A stretch of 64,000 nt of DNA from Paludibacteraceae bacterium (GTDB taxonomy: Bacteria > Bacteroidota > Bacteroidia > Bacteroidales > Paludibacteraceae), in assembly GCA_024405855.1 (NCBI GenBank), contig JAKSNZ010000007.1, positions 1 through 64,000 of the forward strand, written 5' to 3'. Positions within the stretch are counted from its first letter, which is position 1. Each line of letters begins with the position of its first letter. The notes under the pieces were generated by a model. The model was given only the letters and a program-made list of their open reading frames with translations. It was not told the DNA's origin and searched no databases. Below are positions 6,281-48,945 of the stretch, in pieces. The position numbers were made by a program, and so were the translations under genes.

Positions 6281-6325
6281 AATTAGTGAATAGTGAATAA
6301 AGGAATTCTTTATTAACTATTAACT
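6281..6325. repeat. Heptamer-type intergenic repeat
   Basis: The whole spacer between the OmpH-like gene and fmt consists of words such as GTGAATA and TTAACTA arranged head to tail. The GAATAG word (CTATTC on the plus strand) continues into the OmpH-like gene and supplies its stop codon. A 7-bp stem AATAAAG/CTTTATT lies in the middle. Similar words occur at 11644-11680 and 42843-42904. Confidence 0.75.
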
Positions 6326-42309: not shown

Positions 42310-42341
42310 CAAATTTAATAAAAATAGTATTATTTGTCAAA
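42310..42341 (-). promoter_or_regulatory. ispD-recG promoter (TTTG-N20-TAAATTTG)
   Basis: On the minus strand, TTTG (42338-42341) and TAAATTTG (42310-42317), spaced 20 bp, both match the consensus exactly, 19 bp upstream of ispD. Its -33 box lies immediately next to the -33 box of the opposite promoter. Confidence 0.75.
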
Positions 42342-42366
42342 AATCAGAGATTTTTTTTGTACCTTC
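42333..42366 (+). promoter_or_regulatory. SPOR-gene promoter
   Basis: TTTG at 42333-42336, 22 bp, then TACCTTCG at 42359-42366 (one change from TAnnTTTG), 6 bp before the start codon. The transcript would be nearly leaderless. Confidence 0.55.
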
Positions 42367-42372
42367 GCAGTC

Positions 42373-42852
42373 ATGAAACAAATTCTTGTATTGACAACAA
42401 CCCTGTTATTATGCCTTGCAACATACGCAGAGCGTATAGGTTCTGTTTCATTGAACCAACCTGCAGGGCTTGACTCCCTTGTTTATAAAAACATAGGGGC
42501 TACAGTACAACCTGCAAATCAAGTTGTTTCATGTAGCGGATTCAGAGTACAGATTTTCTCAAGCAACAGAGGTCAGAACGCCAAGAATGCGGCGTTTGAA
42601 ATGGAAAAGACCTATACTGAAGCTTTTCCTGAATCACACGCATACGTCACCTATTCCGCTCCTTTTTGGAAAGTGAGAGTGGGAGACTTTGTTTCATATT
42701 ATGAGGCATTGGTATTCAGTAACACCGTTAAGGATGCTTTTCCTGACCGTGCAACTGAAATTTTTGTAGTTAAGGAAGATATAGTCAAACCTCTTTATCT
42801 TGGCGTTGAGAACACTCCAACCATTAAAGAGGAAGAAACAATTAATAATTAA
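42373..42852 (+). CDS. Exported SPOR-domain protein
   Basis: A 159-residue protein starting at the ATG at 42373: signal peptide MKQILVLTTTLLLCLATYA, a short linker, then a SPOR domain (about 50-140: FRVQIFSSNRGQNAKNAAFE, FWKVRVGDFVSYYEAL, AFPDRATEIFVVKEDI). SPOR domains bind denuded glycan at division sites, so a periplasmic peptidoglycan-associated role is likely. An upstream in-frame start lies before the -7 box and is rejected. Confidence 0.88.
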   Translation: MKQILVLTTTLLLCLATYAERIGSVSLNQPAGLDSLVYKNIGATVQPANQVVSCSGFRVQIFSSNRGQNAKNAAFEMEKTYTEAFPESHAYVTYSAPFWKVRVGDFVSYYEALVFSNTVKDAFPDRATEIFVVKEDIVKPLYLGVENTPTIKEEETINN

Positions 42853-42904
42853 CAATTAACTTTTCACTATTCACTATTCTTTATTCACTATTAACTATTA
42901 ACTA
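42843..42904. repeat. Heptamer repeat before the TPP riboswitch
   Basis: Head-to-tail 7-bp words, TTAACTA, TTCACTA and TTCTTTA, run from the end of the SPOR gene to the riboswitch. They resemble the spacers at 6281-6325 and 11644-11680. Confidence 0.75.
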
Positions 42905-42905
42905 A

Positions 42906-42998
42906 TCATCGGGGTGCTACGTTTTGTGGCTGAGATTATACCCATTGTACCGGATACAGATAATGCTGATACCGGGATGCGGCAGAATTGGCACCTCA
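42906..42998 (+). promoter_or_regulatory. TPP (thiamine pyrophosphate) riboswitch
   Basis: The thi-box sequence is well preserved: TCGGGGTGCTACG, GGCTGAGATTATACCC and ACCGGATACAGATAATGC followed by TGATACCGGGA, in the correct order and spacing. A downstream hairpin GCAGAATT (42982-42989) with AATTCTGC (43001-43008) lies 5 bp before the receptor start codon, and GCACCTC (42991-42997) can pair instead with GGGGTGC (42911-42917) of the aptamer. The layout suggests control of translation initiation of the thiamine receptor operon. Confidence 0.93.
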
Positions 42999-43013
42999 TA
43001 AATTCTGCTGAAT

Positions 43014-45170
43014 ATGTCAAGAATTAAAACACTGATTATTATTGCCTTAATGCCTGCATTATGTATGGCGCAAGGGCTTAACCTGCTTGAGCAGGAGAAT
43101 GACTCCACTTACACAAAAGTATTGGAACAGATAGAGGTTAGCGCGTTACGTACCGCTGACAATGCCCCTGTTGCATTAAGCATTATTGACAAAAGTGAAT
43201 TTCAAAAACAAAACAATGCTGACGATGTTCCATACTTGCTTCAAAACACAGTTTCTGTAATTGCCACCTCCGATGCAGGCAACGGTGTGGGTTACACAGA
43301 CTTACGCATGCGTGGCTATGACGGCACAAGAATAAATGTAACCGTTGGCGATGTTCCCCTGAACGATGCAGAAAGCCATAAAGTGTATTGGGTTGATACT
43401 CCTGACCTGCTACAAACCGCAGAGAACGTGCAGATAGGCAGAGGTGCAGGTTCTTCAACAACGGGAACAGGCGCCTTTGGCGGTTCAATAAACATGGAAC
43501 CTAAGAAATTCTCAGAAAAACTTGGGGGCAAAGTGGAAGTATTGTACGGCAGTTACAACACTAACAAAGAGGTAATAAATGTAACATCGGGGTTACTAAA
43601 AGAGAAATGGGCTATAGAAGGAACTATATCTCATACAGGTTCTGACGGTTATATGGAAAGGGCAACCTCTCAACTTCACTCGTATATGTTACAGACAGGA
43701 TACCTTGGCACATACACATCAGTAAAACTGCTATCGTTCGGAGGTTTTGAAAGCACCTATAACGCTTGGGACGGAATAACAAAAGAGCAGATGGCTAAAA
43801 ACCGCCGATACAACCCTTGCGGAGAGATACTGGACAAGAACGGAAATGTTACAGGATTTTATGACAACCAGAAGGACAACTATTTTCAAACAAACAACCA
43901 CCTGATATTCAAGCACCAATTCAATGGTTTTTGGACACTTAACACAACTGCCCACTACACTTACGGAGACGGCTGGTATGACCAATACAAAAACTCACGC
44001 ACACTATCAGAGTATATGCTCTCTGACCTTTATGATGCCTCAGGACAACTTCTGAAAAAAAGTAACCTTACAAGGCAAAAAAAACAAAAGAGCCACTTTG
44101 GTGGCATTATTGCATACGCGGCATTCAAAAACAAAAGTGTTACAACTAATTTTGGAGCATCGTGGAATATGTACGGAAGTTTTCATAACGGATATGTTAC
44201 AAGCGTGGCTGATGCAGTAAATTTCAAAGGCAACTCTGAGTATTACAGGAACAACTCCCTGAAAAATGATGTGAGCGTTTTTGCAAAGGTTGATTGGGAA
44301 GCGTACAAAGGTCTGTTTGTGTATGCTGACATTCAATACAGATATGTAAATCATAAGATTGACGGACTAAATGATGTTTATGACTATACAAAAGGCGGCA
44401 TGCAGGACATTAATGTAAACAAGACATACAATTTCATTAATCCTAAAATTGGACTGAGTTATAATTTCTGCAAACTGCATAAGGTTTACGCATCGGGGTC
44501 AATGGCTAACCATGAACCTACAAGAAGGGATTTTGTGAATGCCGTAAAAGGTGATGAACCAAAACCTGAAAGACTGTATGATGTTGAGGCAGGCTATCAA
44601 GTTAACTCCAAATGGGTGAAAGGTTCTCTTAACCTTTATTATATGATTTATAAAGACCAACTTATTCTTACAGGGGCTCAAAACCCCGATACATACGAGG
44701 CACTTTACACCAACATACCTGACAGCTACCGCCGAGGCATTGAATTGGAGGCAACCGTCACCCCTCTTAAATGGCTGTGGTTTGGAGGAAATGTTACACT
44801 AAGTCAGAATAAGGCTGTAAATGCAAACTCATGTACTACAGACCTATCTTATTCTCCGTCAGTTACTGCCTTGATAAAGGCAGGCGTTGAAACTCATGGA
44901 TTTACAGTTAGTTGGCTGACAAGATATGTGGGCAAACAATACATAACCAACACATCAGATGAGAATTTCACACTTGACTCCTATTGGGTTACAGACCTTC
45001 AGTTAGGTTATGCCCTGAAGGTCAAGAATGCCTGTACAATAAATTTTGGAGTGTCTCTAAATAACTTATTTAATGCAGAATATTGTGCAAATGCTTTTGC
45101 ATACGATGAAGCATACTATTTCCCACAAGCCAAATTCAATGCCACAGGGAAGATTTCAGTAGAATTTTAA
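43014..45170 (+). CDS. TonB-dependent thiamine receptor
   Basis: A 718-residue outer-membrane transporter. Signal peptide (about 1-19), plug domain with LEQIEVSALRTADNAPVAL and DLRMRGYDGTRINVTVGDVP, IGRGAGSSTTGTGAFGGSIN, then a long 22-strand barrel ending in an aromatic residue (KFNATGKISVEF). The TPP riboswitch upstream and the PnuT-type gene 13 bp downstream identify the cargo as thiamine or a derivative. Bacteroidota omr1-pnuT operons under THI-element control are established in comparative genomics. Confidence 0.92.
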   Translation: MSRIKTLIIIALMPALCMAQGLNLLEQENDSTYTKVLEQIEVSALRTADNAPVALSIIDKSEFQKQNNADDVPYLLQNTVSVIATSDAGNGVGYTDLRMRGYDGTRINVTVGDVPLNDAESHKVYWVDTPDLLQTAENVQIGRGAGSSTTGTGAFGGSINMEPKKFSEKLGGKVEVLYGSYNTNKEVINVTSGLLKEKWAIEGTISHTGSDGYMERATSQLHSYMLQTGYLGTYTSVKLLSFGGFESTYNAWDGITKEQMAKNRRYNPCGEILDKNGNVTGFYDNQKDNYFQTNNHLIFKHQFNGFWTLNTTAHYTYGDGWYDQYKNSRTLSEYMLSDLYDASGQLLKKSNLTRQKKQKSHFGGIIAYAAFKNKSVTTNFGASWNMYGSFHNGYVTSVADAVNFKGNSEYYRNNSLKNDVSVFAKVDWEAYKGLFVYADIQYRYVNHKIDGLNDVYDYTKGGMQDINVNKTYNFINPKIGLSYNFCKLHKVYASGSMANHEPTRRDFVNAVKGDEPKPERLYDVEAGYQVNSKWVKGSLNLYYMIYKDQLILTGAQNPDTYEALYTNIPDSYRRGIELEATVTPLKWLWFGGNVTLSQNKAVNANSCTTDLSYSPSVTALIKAGVETHGFTVSWLTRYVGKQYITNTSDENFTLDSYWVTDLQLGYALKVKNACTINFGVSLNNLFNAEYCANAFAYDEAYYFPQAKFNATGKISVEF

Positions 45171-45183
45171 CATTTTTTAACAA

Positions 45184-45765
45184 ATGGACTTTAACATGTT
45201 TTTACAAATAGCAGGAGTTGTACTTGGATTACTCTACCTGTGGTTAGAATACAAAGTAAATGTCTGGATGTGGGCAGTAGGCATAGTCATGCCAATTGTT
45301 CATGGTATTCTATACTATAATTCAGGGCTTTACGCTGACGCCGCCATAAATGTTTATTACATAATTGCGGGAGTTTACGGATTTTTTTGTTGGGTTATAC
45401 GTAAACCTGACACTCAAACAAAACACAGCATTCCTCACTCAATATTTGATTCAGACAAAAGACTTATACCTGTACTTATAGCATCGTATGCAGTACTTCA
45501 TATTATCATTTACTTGTTGCTTGTAAACTTTACAAACAGCACAGTACCCATTTGTGACAGCTTTACAACAGCCCTCTCAATAGTGGCGTTATGGATGCTT
45601 TCACGCAAATATACAGAACAATGGCTTGTTTGGCTTGTAGTTGATGCGGTTACCGTAGGGCTGTACATCTACAAGGGAATAGACATTACCGCAGGGCTTT
45701 ATGCCATATACTCAGTAATTGCAATAGCAGGTTATATAAAGTGGAAAAAGCAGAGTGTCAGATAA
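45184..45765 (+). CDS. pnuT: PnuT-type thiamine transporter (PnuC family)
   Basis: A 193-residue inner-membrane protein with about seven helices and PnuC-family motifs (LEYKVNVWMWAVGI, NVYYIIAGVYGFFCW, EQWLVWLVVDAVTVGLYIYKG). PnuC proteins facilitate diffusion of vitamins that are then trapped by phosphorylation. Its place behind a TPP riboswitch and receptor marks it as PnuT (thiamine) and not the nicotinamide riboside carrier. A thiamin pyrophosphokinase is not found in this operon here. Confidence 0.88.
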   Translation: MDFNMFLQIAGVVLGLLYLWLEYKVNVWMWAVGIVMPIVHGILYYNSGLYADAAINVYYIIAGVYGFFCWVIRKPDTQTKHSIPHSIFDSDKRLIPVLIASYAVLHIIIYLLLVNFTNSTVPICDSFTTALSIVALWMLSRKYTEQWLVWLVVDAVTVGLYIYKGIDITAGLYAIYSVIAIAGYIKWKKQSVR

Positions 45766-45766
45766 G

Positions 45767-47539
45767 TTACTCCGCTGAAATTTCAACAAGCATATCCCTA
45801 TATGCTGTAAGGATTCTTGATTTTGAGACAAAACCCACATATTTGTCGCCGTTCAGGACAGGAAGATTCCATGCGTGAGAATCGTCAAATTTCTTTACAA
45901 CAGATTCCATTGATTCTCCCACATAAATCTTTTCAGGCGGCGATACCATAAGTCTGCGTACACTGAATCTGTTATAAAGTTCAGGTCGGAACATAATGTT
46001 TCTGACCTCCTCAAGCGATACAATACCCAAGAACACGCCGTACCTGTCAACTACAGCAAAAATATTTCTGTTTGAAGATGAAATAAGTTTGATTAAGTCA
46101 CCAAACATAGCATTAGGACTTATGGTTTGAATATCAGTCTCAATCAAATCATCAGTCTTAAGAAGTGTGAGTACAGCCTTATCCTTATTGTGAGTCATAA
46201 GTTCACCCTTCTTTGCAAGACGCATTGAGTAAAGGCTGTGAGGTTCAAACACGTATATGGTGCAATAAGAAATTACACTGACTATCATCAAAGGAATAAA
46301 CAGAGAATATCCGCCCGTAAGTTCAGCAATTAGGAACACACCTGTAAGAGGAGCGTGCATCACACCTGACATAAGCCCCGCCATGCCAGCCAGAGCAAAG
46401 TTTTGGGCAGGCACATTTACACCAAGCAGTTCAAGTACAACTGCAACTAAAAAGCCTGTAAAGCACCCCACAAACAGCGATGGAGCAAAGATACCACCGC
46501 ATCCGCCGGCGGCGTTGGTGGCGGCAGAAGCAAAAATCTTAAACAGAATTATCATTAAAAGATATGCCACAAGCCAAAAAGTGCTGTTTTTAAGACCATA
46601 GAAAAGACTATGTTCAAATATGGCATCGTGGTTTAGATTCAAAAGATAAGATATAGAGTCATAACCTTCACCGTAAAATGGAGGAAACAGGAAAATCAAG
46701 GCACTAAGAATTACTGCACCCACAGCAAACTTAACCCAAAAATTGGTTATTTTGGCAAAGAGATTCTCAACCCAATTCATTCCGCGGGTGAAATAGAGCG
46801 ATATGAATCCGCACACAAATCCAAGAATAAGATAATACGGTATTCTTGAAATCATAAAGGCATCCTCCTGCATTGCAAATTGGGATTCGGTACCTGTAAA
46901 TATATACGCTATGGTGGTGGCGGTTACAGAAGAAATAAGCAGAGGAATTATTGAAGAGAATGTCATGTCAAGCATAAGCACCTCAACAGTAAACACAATT
47001 CCTGCAATTGGAGCCTTGAATATGCCTCCTATGGCACCTGCGGCACCACATCCAACCATCAGCATCAGAGTCTTTTGGTCAAGTTTGAAGAATCTGCCAA
47101 GATTAGAGCCAATGGCAGAGCCTGTAAGCACAACAGGAGCCTCAGCACCAACAGAACCGCCAAAGCCTATTGTCACAGAACTTGCCACAACAGATGACCA
47201 CATATTGTGCGGCTTTATTATACTTTTCCGCTGCGATATGGCAAAAAGAATCTTTGTAACACCGTGGCTTATATCGTCCTTTACTACATACTTTACAAAA
47301 AGAGCCGTCAGCAGAATACCCACGGCAGGGTAAAGCAAATATAGGAAATTCTCATTATAAATAGAGAAATTAAGAGTAAGCAGATATTGGAAAAGGTGTA
47401 TCAGTTGCTTTAGAATACATGCCGCAAAAGAGGTCAGCACCCCAACAATAAAACTGAGAATCAGCACAAATCTGTCATTAGGAATTGACTTCTCCCTCCA
47501 GTTTATAAGTCTGTCATATCTGTTTTCCCACTTTGTCAT
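45767..47539 (-). CDS. ClC-family chloride channel/antiporter with CBS domains
   Basis: A 590-residue membrane protein from the ATG at 47539. About ten to twelve ClC helices include FGGSVGAEAPVVLTGSAIGS, where a GAEAP stretch holds the position of the gating Glu, and AAGGCGGIFAPSLF. Two cytoplasmic CBS domains form the C-terminus (about 460-585, MFGDLIKLIS and FSVRRLMVSPPEKIYVGESMES). It overlaps the upstream sugar transferase stop by one base (TAATG). Whether it exchanges protons or conducts passively cannot be told. Confidence 0.93.
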   Translation of the reverse strand: MTKWENRYDRLINWREKSIPNDRFVLILSFIVGVLTSFAACILKQLIHLFQYLLTLNFSIYNENFLYLLYPAVGILLTALFVKYVVKDDISHGVTKILFAISQRKSIIKPHNMWSSVVASSVTIGFGGSVGAEAPVVLTGSAIGSNLGRFFKLDQKTLMLMVGCGAAGAIGGIFKAPIAGIVFTVEVLMLDMTFSSIIPLLISSVTATTIAYIFTGTESQFAMQEDAFMISRIPYYLILGFVCGFISLYFTRGMNWVENLFAKITNFWVKFAVGAVILSALIFLFPPFYGEGYDSISYLLNLNHDAIFEHSLFYGLKNSTFWLVAYLLMIILFKIFASAATNAAGGCGGIFAPSLFVGCFTGFLVAVVLELLGVNVPAQNFALAGMAGLMSGVMHAPLTGVFLIAELTGGYSLFIPLMIVSVISYCTIYVFEPHSLYSMRLAKKGELMTHNKDKAVLTLLKTDDLIETDIQTISPNAMFGDLIKLISSSNRNIFAVVDRYGVFLGIVSLEEVRNIMFRPELYNRFSVRRLMVSPPEKIYVGESMESVVKKFDDSHAWNLPVLNGDKYVGFVSKSRILTAYRDMLVEISAE

Positions 47540-48945
47540 TACATTCCCTTTCCTGTACAAATTGTCTTAACAGTGTATATCATAATCTTAAGGTCAAGCA
47601 ACAATGATGCATTTTCAAGATAAAGCATATCATACGATGCCCTCTCAACCATCTGCTCCACAGTATTTGCATACCCAAACTTTACCATTCCCCACGATGT
47701 TATTCCAGGCTTTACATTCTGTAGCATGTAATAATACGGAGCCAACTTAACTATCTGTTCCACATAATACTGACGTTCTGGTCTTGGTCCTACAAGTGAC
47801 ATATCCCCATTAATCACATTAAAGAATTGAGGTAACTCATCCAAACGATATTTACGCATGAACCTGCCTAATCTTGTAATTCTTGGGTCATCATTTGACG
47901 ATAGCATCGGAGTGTCCGTTTCCGCATTCAGAATCATGCTGCGGAACTTGTAAATGCTGAAAATCCTGCCATGCTGTCCAACTCTCTCCTGTGAATAGAT
48001 AGGTTTTTTTCCAACAGCAATGAAAAAGAATACATATAGCGGAGAAAGCAGGATTATGGCAAGAACTGAAAGTGCAATATCAAAAAAGCGTTTGAAGTTT
48101 ACCTCCCAGTCATTCATTTTTATGGCGGAAAGGTCAATCATAGGTATGCCGTAGATGGTGTCAAGTTTTACACTTCCCGTTACCAAATGATACTTTGACG
48201 GAATAAACTTTATGCCTACGCCCGTCTGTCCTACTGTACCTATTATGGAATATATTTTCTTATCTGTTATGTTTTCAACGGCAATAATGACTTGTGATAC
48301 AGAAAACTCACCTATAATCTCTAACAACTCCTTTCCTGTACCTAAAACCTTATTATGCGGAACCTTTATCTCTGTAGATGATTCCATGTTTACAAATCCT
48401 TTTACTATGTAGCCTGTTGATTTTGGAGTGGATAACAAGTCTTTATATAGTTTTGCCGCTTTTTCTCCAACTCCAAGAATTAATGTATTGAATCCTATTT
48501 CACCTTTGTTAATGCGTTCTGCACTCTTTACTGTTATTGCAAGCCTTGCTGTGTATGTAAATGTAAATTGCAACCCTATTAGGGTAAAGTATGACTGTAG
48601 GTATACTGAATAATCAGAAACAGCATCATCTACAATAATGAGAAAGAATAGTATTGTAGAGCCTATTATGGTTGTCAGTATGGTGGTAACCAATTCAGAC
48701 ACTCTTGACTTGAACCACACATCATTGTAATAGCCTGACATCCAATGTAGAAAGAACCAGAAAAAAGGAATTAACGGATATACTATCTTTGCGTTATACT
48801 CAGGAAGCAGGAATAAATAACTGAACTCATCAGTTCTCAATGCCGCCATAGTTCTGATGCCGTTCAATATTGCCCAAGCAAGCAATGCCATTACAGCATC
48901 ACACACAACGTATTTATATAATATGCTTCTCTTTTTCAAAGTCAA
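47539..48945 (-). CDS. Polyprenyl-phosphate sugar-1-phosphate transferase
   Basis: A 468-residue WbaP/WcaJ-like enzyme that starts glycan assembly by loading a sugar-1-phosphate onto undecaprenyl phosphate. Four to five N-terminal helices are followed by a CoA-binding-like Rossmann domain (about 145-260, LILGVGEKAAKLYKDLL) and a reentrant membrane helix plus catalytic domain (KRFFDIALSVLAIILLSPLY, IYKFRSM, YRLDELPQFFNVINGDMSLV, GPRP). It could prime the polysaccharide built by genes at 11.6-23.5 kb. It follows tsaC with no gap. Confidence 0.94.
   Translation of the reverse strand: MTLKKRSILYKYVVCDAVMALLAWAILNGIRTMAALRTDEFSYLFLLPEYNAKIVYPLIPFFWFFLHWMSGYYNDVWFKSRVSELVTTILTTIIGSTILFFLIIVDDAVSDYSVYLQSYFTLIGLQFTFTYTARLAITVKSAERINKGEIGFNTLILGVGEKAAKLYKDLLSTPKSTGYIVKGFVNMESSTEIKVPHNKVLGTGKELLEIIGEFSVSQVIIAVENITDKKIYSIIGTVGQTGVGIKFIPSKYHLVTGSVKLDTIYGIPMIDLSAIKMNDWEVNFKRFFDIALSVLAIILLSPLYVFFFIAVGKKPIYSQERVGQHGRIFSIYKFRSMILNAETDTPMLSSNDDPRITRLGRFMRKYRLDELPQFFNVINGDMSLVGPRPERQYYVEQIVKLAPYYYMLQNVKPGITSWGMVKFGYANTVEQMVERASYDMLYLENASLLLDLKIMIYTVKTICTGKGM

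Follow-up and report, generated by a model that had tools for sequence, protein, structure and literature searches.

A riboswitch-linked vitamin B1 importer of gut Bacteroidales with a PnuT transporter from a branch that probably works without thiamin pyrophosphokinase

Receptor-PnuT operons of many Bacteroidales have no adjoining gene for thiamin pyrophosphokinase (TPK), and on sequence evidence their PnuT transporters fall together in a clade that is almost exclusively theirs and has signature residues. The window, by which we mean the whole stretch of 64,000 nucleotides analyzed here, comes from a Paludibacteraceae bacterium (contig JAKSNZ010000007.1) and almost certainly carries a TPP-responsive riboswitch together with a vitamin B1 importer. 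It is very probable that this importer, and the PnuT subfamily to which it belongs, is independent of TPK. We also lean, by a little, toward the fuller reading, namely a TPP-repressed importer built on this PnuT subfamily and feeding ThiL. Riboswitches and importers of this kind are known; what appears to be new is the TPK-free branch of PnuT, as it was not found described in the accessible parts of the open-licence literature.

The riboswitch and the operon

The source genome is a 1.76 Mb draft of a gut bacterium in 70 contigs (95.65% complete); among the receptor matches listed, the closest named ones belong to Paludibacteraceae MAGs obtained from horse faeces and ruminant gut. The relevant features are as follows.

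42334-42852: SPOR-domain gene, with a possible promoter site before it
42855-42908, forward strand: array of 7-nt direct repeats (ATTCACT-like, 7.7 copies), directly before the aptamer
42900-42995, forward strand: TPP riboswitch aptamer (THI element), RF00059 match over model positions 1-105 (Infernal, 49.0 bits, E 1.1e-8)
42911-42917, forward strand: GGGGTGC, 5' strand of the aptamer and putative target of the anti-aptamer element (from fold position and duplex test)
42980-43010, forward strand: predicted expression-platform hairpin, a 10-bp stem (42980-42989 with 43001-43010) with an 11-nt loop (fold -12.6, z -3.08)
42991-42997, forward strand: GCACCTC, putative anti-aptamer element in the hairpin loop (duplex with GGGGTGC, window p 0.017)
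43014-45170, forward strand: TonB-dependent outer-membrane receptor, OMthi/Omr1-like, 718 aa (PF00593 barrel, PF07715 plug; kin in Bacteroidales)
45184-45765, forward strand: PnuT, PnuC-family inner-membrane vitamin transporter of the TPK-less clade, 193 aa (PF04973, 168.6 bits; 4QTN, 2e-7)
45767-47560, opposite strand to the operon: ClC channel gene, the next gene after pnuT

The aptamer precedes thiamin-related genes: the receptor-PnuT operon starts 19 nt downstream of the RF00059 match, and 13 nt separate the receptor open reading frame from pnuT. The operon ends after pnuT, since the next gene lies on the other strand; the initial annotation had placed its end at the same point. The PnuC-family fold of PnuT is indicated by its matches to the Pfam family PF04973 and to the PnuC structure 4QTN, and a single-sequence structure prediction was poor (pLDDT 50.6). 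Its place in a TPP-controlled operon is what suggests that this protein transports thiamine.

The clear thi-box first seen by inspection proved to belong to a full-length match to the family model, with the CTGAGA core and P4/P5 conserved (the E value comes from a search of 501 bases) and with a 3' end that overlaps the platform hairpin. The window aptamer differs from RF00059 in its short P3 arm, its weak P1 and its score, and the leader has a platform hairpin with an anti-aptamer loop beside the ATG. Because 49.0 bits is less than the RF00059 gathering score of 54.3 bits, a default whole-window scan misses the aptamer. Sub-threshold matches are common among kin: in a set of 61 genomes (the source genome, 15 of its genus, 21 of its family, and 24 of its order), RF00059 matched in 54 and passed the cut-off in 33. 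Of the 54 genomes with a match, 21 would thus be scored as having no TPP riboswitch at the gathering score, and surveys at the Rfam threshold therefore undercount it in Bacteroidales. Further THI elements, which had been proposed as something to look for, are lacking: the window aptamer is the sole RF00059 match in the 1.76 Mb of the source genome.

Absence of TPK from the source genome and many relatives

TPK normally activates vitamin B1 after import, ThiL is the kinase that phosphorylates TMP, and ThiE is the TMP synthase. Profile searches of the source genome, operon included, gave no match to TPK (PF04263), no match to ThiE (PF02581) at E <= 0.001, and none to ThiC; ThiL matched at 1.3e-96. 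The initial annotation had correctly noted that the TPK often linked to omr1-pnuT is missing from this operon, but its expectation that the kinase should be elsewhere in the genome has to be rejected: there is no PF04263 match genome-wide, and the absence is common to many relatives. Nor does the genome hold the thiC operon that it proposed to search for.

Within the 61-genome set, TPK was found in 10 genomes and ThiL in 60. ThiC, ThiE, and TPK are all absent from 29, if PF02581 matches below the cut-off are counted as no ThiE (G011, G025, G032, G036, and G043; also a 47.6-bit match in G019, which has ThiC and is outside the 29), and ThiL matched in every one of the 29. They include G011, which is 100% complete, and G016, which is a single contig (99%). 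The receptor-PnuT operon is present in eight genomes of the genus (G002, G003, G006, G007, G008, G010, G011, and the window's own); six of these are without ThiC, ThiE, and TPK, and G002 and G006 have biosynthesis genes. ThiL is also kept in genomes with TPK but without ThiE (G017, G036, G037, and G051), and its retention is therefore not tied to the lack of TPK.

Two further arrangements were seen close to the source genome. At L050, L055, L058, L059, L065, and L067, all of the same family, a riboswitch-receptor unit occurs without an adjoining PnuT, without TPK, and without ThiE. At eight loci of the same genus (L034, L035, L037, L039, L040, L042, L043, and L044), a PF01663 phosphodiesterase/nucleotide pyrophosphatase-like gene with a signal peptide adjoins the receptor locus. 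Such a neighbor would fit a periplasmic step from TPP to TMP, but its nucleophile motif, judged by eye, looks degenerate; the gene is not in the window, and a genome search run without a positive control did not find it in the source genome (G000).

Presence and absence of TPK across Bacteroidales

A scan of species genomes gave at least 80 receptor loci; among those listed, TPK adjoins the receptor in 31 and does not in 49. The 61-genome set already contained eight of these 49, all from the source genome's genus (L086-L093), and genome-wide searches covered the other 41 Bacteroidales genomes without an adjacent TPK together with 9 that have one (50 genomes). Among the matches listed, a TPK anywhere in the genome was found in only one of the 41 (L130, Bacteroides faecis). 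As the remaining 40 have none, an assembly gap is unlikely. The searches detected TPK in 9/9 genomes with an adjacent copy, at 1e-22 or better. Five of the 41 loci had no PnuT match (L103, on a short contig, L130, L131, L142, and L143).

Four of the 40 TPK-free genomes had a ThiE match above the cut-off (G061, G062, G064, and, as a partial match, G100), which leaves 36 without it when PF02581 matches below the cut-off in the 50-genome set are counted as no ThiE (G065, G066, G068, and G078). ThiL was found at E <= 1e-20 in 36/40 (partial in G078 and G095) and was missing from G065, G067, G089, and G099. Among the matches listed, 32 of the 40 have ThiL and neither ThiE nor TPK. The importer is retained even in some TPK-free genomes that have their own TMP synthesis (G002, G006, G061, G062, and G064).

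No gene that could replace TPK in the TPK-less operons recurs across lineages, and a third operon gene as a substitute for TPK was rejected for this reason. Inspection by eye of 17 stretches around thiL gave no shared candidate kinase.

A PnuT clade largely without TPK

In a tree of 78 PnuTs (34 with and 44 without an adjacent TPK), one group of 46 comprises 43 TPK-less and 3 TPK-associated sequences (SH-aLRT 99). L121, which is of the same species as L113, is omitted from the PnuT trees; a 71-row tree also omits L051, L069, L070, L071, and L077 (four of these five have long branches), L148, and L158. On this second tree, the other side consists of 24 TPK-associated and one TPK-less PnuT with 99/99 support, and the TPK label changes 3 times, versus 21.7 in shuffles. 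The exceptions are L155, L160, and L164, which fall in the TPK-less clade and have an adjacent TPK, and L120, which falls outside it and has none. Both PnuT types are found among Rikenellaceae-labelled MAGs; thus, the split does not simply follow the species tree.

The two groups also differ in sequence, when the four exceptions and L151 are set apart. Position 40 is H, N, or Q in 42/42 TPK-less PnuTs versus Y in 31/31 TPK-associated ones, position 41 is G, S, or A versus I, V, or L, and positions 43, 166, and 167 split the groups as well. Counted from the alignment, position 40 corresponds to Tyr75 of the PnuC chain in 4QTN.

G009, a genome of the same genus (L042 and L077), has a receptor without an adjoining PnuT and a PnuT-TPK pair on another contig. 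In the 78-PnuT tree, this PnuT groups with the TPK-associated rows on a long branch, and the arrangement looks as if the module had been exchanged.

The cargo and the rival explanations

We propose that the receptor and PnuT would be translated when TPP is scarce. The receptor would then take a B1 vitamer into the periplasm, PnuT would move it across the inner membrane, and TMP reaching the cytoplasm would be phosphorylated by ThiL. TPP, once bound to the aptamer, would let the hairpin by the receptor ATG form, and translation would fall. Both the direction of this regulation, with TPP as an OFF signal, and the identity of the cargo as TMP are what we infer.

As ThiL is the sole recognizable enzyme, the incoming compound would either enter at TMP or be converted to it, and the data suggest that this bacterium and its relatives without TPK import an already phosphorylated form or use another enzyme. 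ThiL being the only recognizable step to TPP, TMP is the most likely cytoplasmic cargo, an assignment that we hold with less than even confidence. We favor it for three reasons: the operons come with no linked kinase, their PnuT differs, and the importer persists in TPK-free genomes able to make TMP. The boldest version, in which a Bacteroidales PnuT subfamily carries TMP straight to ThiL, TPP is salvaged without a thiamine kinase, and free thiamine is useless to the cells, is more tentative still.

On the one hand, PnuC is not known to carry NMN; given this and the thiamine cargo of the Bacteroides PnuT, a phosphorylated cargo would be unusual. The main rival to TMP has free thiamine imported as in Bacteroides, with a non-homologous kinase making TMP and ThiL finishing TPP (or another enzyme making TPP directly). 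APH-fold kinases of PF01636, which we take to be the fold of E. coli ThiK, are available for this in the source genome and in 58/61 relatives; they are as common in TPK-containing as in TPK-free genomes and thus name no candidate. The accessible text of PMC5613172 gives thiamine as the compound transported by the Bacteroides PnuT. On the other hand, import of thiamine by itself leaves the difference in PnuT unexplained, and neither the TPK-less operons nor, by eye, the 17 stretches around thiL offer a linked kinase; we give this rival somewhat less weight than TMP.

If instead TPP were imported intact and used directly, with ThiL only re-phosphorylating TMP from breakdown, the retention of ThiL almost everywhere (60/61 genomes) would make sense, but for a channel of the PnuC type, a phosphate ester with two charges would be expected to be an even more unusual cargo than TMP. 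Salmonella has an ABC system for the uptake of both thiamine and phosphorylated thiamine, according to the accessible part of PMC5613172; even with this precedent, intact TPP as the cargo is improbable. We rate lowest the explanation that a TPK is present and was missed through draft assembly or sequence divergence. Some room for it is left by the completeness of the source genome (95.65%) and by the many MAGs among the relatives; but near-complete genomes show the same absence, the absence follows the PnuT clade, and searches that detected every adjacent TPK (9/9, at 1e-22 or better) found none in 40 of the 41 genomes without one.

Comparison with known systems

Like the OMthi-pnuT-tnr3 system of Bacteroides (BT2390, BT2396-BT2397; PMC5613172, accessible part), the window system combines a TPP riboswitch, a TonB receptor, and a PnuC-family inner-membrane transporter, and the receptors are kin. 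It differs in that TPK (tnr3) is absent from operon and genome alike, that its PnuT falls in a separate clade with other signature residues, and that the source genome is without biosynthetic ThiC and ThiE. ThiL and omr1 without biosynthesis were described, and called salvage, in marine Flavobacteriales and Cytophagales MAGs (PMC12236431, accessible part). The combination of ThiL and receptor is the same here, whereas TPK and the inner-membrane transporter, examined here over many genomes, are not discussed in the accessible part of that paper.

Genome surveys take ThiL alone as proof of B1 use: in their accessible parts, PMC6593275 treats 'ThiL/ThiN' as a single role, and in PMC11346370 a cell in need of thiamine is recognized by its ThiL. 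For many gut Bacteroidales this leaves a gap, since nothing recognizable converts thiamine to TMP. Either the vitamer exchanged within these communities is TMP, or a kinase acting on thiamine has yet to be discovered. The accessible parts of the open-licence papers contained neither a TPK-free PnuT clade nor the question of which vitamer is imported. Our ThiE result for Muribaculaceae disagrees with the statement, in the accessible part of PMC4936053, that all of its S24-7 (Muribaculaceae) genomes can make B1.

The expression platform

The hairpin reported in the initial annotation is present, but it is longer than the 8 bp given there: the stem GCAGAATT/AATTCTGC gains two pairs in the fold (one of them G-U), which makes 10 bp and leaves 3 nt between the hairpin and the receptor ATG. 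The proposed complementarity of the loop element GCACCTC to the aptamer's GGGGTGC also stands, with 7 bp and p = 0.017 against shuffles of the window leader. Across 8 aligned leaders, 79.7% of cells in the stem are paired, versus 71.2% in shuffles (0/500 shuffles as high), and the stem slid along the alignment reaches at most 54.1%; its covariation score is 0.300 versus 0.213 in shuffles (6/500 shuffles). We take this as moderate support for the hairpin, since the alignment is small, its 8 leaders are kin, and the tested structure came from the window itself.

The wider leader set comprises 87 of 92 leaders that could be parsed (L117, L119, L122, L140, and L158 were lost). A spacer of 35-62 nt is found in 39 of the 87, and the 18 non-redundant leaders among these fold better than shuffles (mean z -2.16), with spacer pairing to the aptamer GGGGTGC that exceeds shuffles (Fisher p 6e-8). 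MAFFT gave no useful alignment of 15 platform hairpins. Another plan, read by eye in 19 leaders, mostly of Muribaculaceae, has a short spacer, and AATGAGTTT (or close to it) before the aptamer pairs with AAACTTATT (or close to it) just before the ATG.

The lowest-energy ligand-free fold of the window leader (-37.2 kcal/mol) pairs the hairpin loop and 5' arm with the aptamer 5' strand; held to the hairpin, the leader folds at -33.7, and with both aptamer and hairpin at -30.9, in folds without pseudoknots between loop and aptamer. The energy gained by the exchange is not above that of shuffled spacers (p 0.45 for the window; Fisher p 0.997 over the 18 leaders). Of the simple switching scheme first proposed, the hairpin and the complementarity therefore stand, and the energetic control does not back the look of a clean switch; for this reason we offer exchange between the hairpin and the loop-aptamer pairing as a hypothesis for the mechanism.

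The position of the hairpin next to the ATG points to translational control, and this, together with the stem kept in 8 leaders, supports the translational platform originally suggested. In its accessible part, PMC5613172 calls the way TPP riboswitches work in Bacteroidetes uncertain and describes transport operons without significant transcript change, which fits translational control. In two leaders of the same genus (L037 and L040), a different hairpin, in which a Shine-Dalgarno-like AAGGAGA close to the start codon is paired, takes the place of the anti-aptamer hairpin. This would be unusual for Bacteroidetes, and the parser's start of the open reading frame may be early there.

The region upstream of the aptamer

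A promoter-like TAnnTTTG box of the Bacteroidetes type lies within 60 nt upstream in 76 of the 87 related leaders. Unlike these, the window has no such box upstream of its aptamer, where the ATTCACT-like repeat array lies; the promoter may therefore have been lost, be atypical, or be located before the SPOR-domain gene. Similar repeat pieces occur at 6283 and 11645 of the window.
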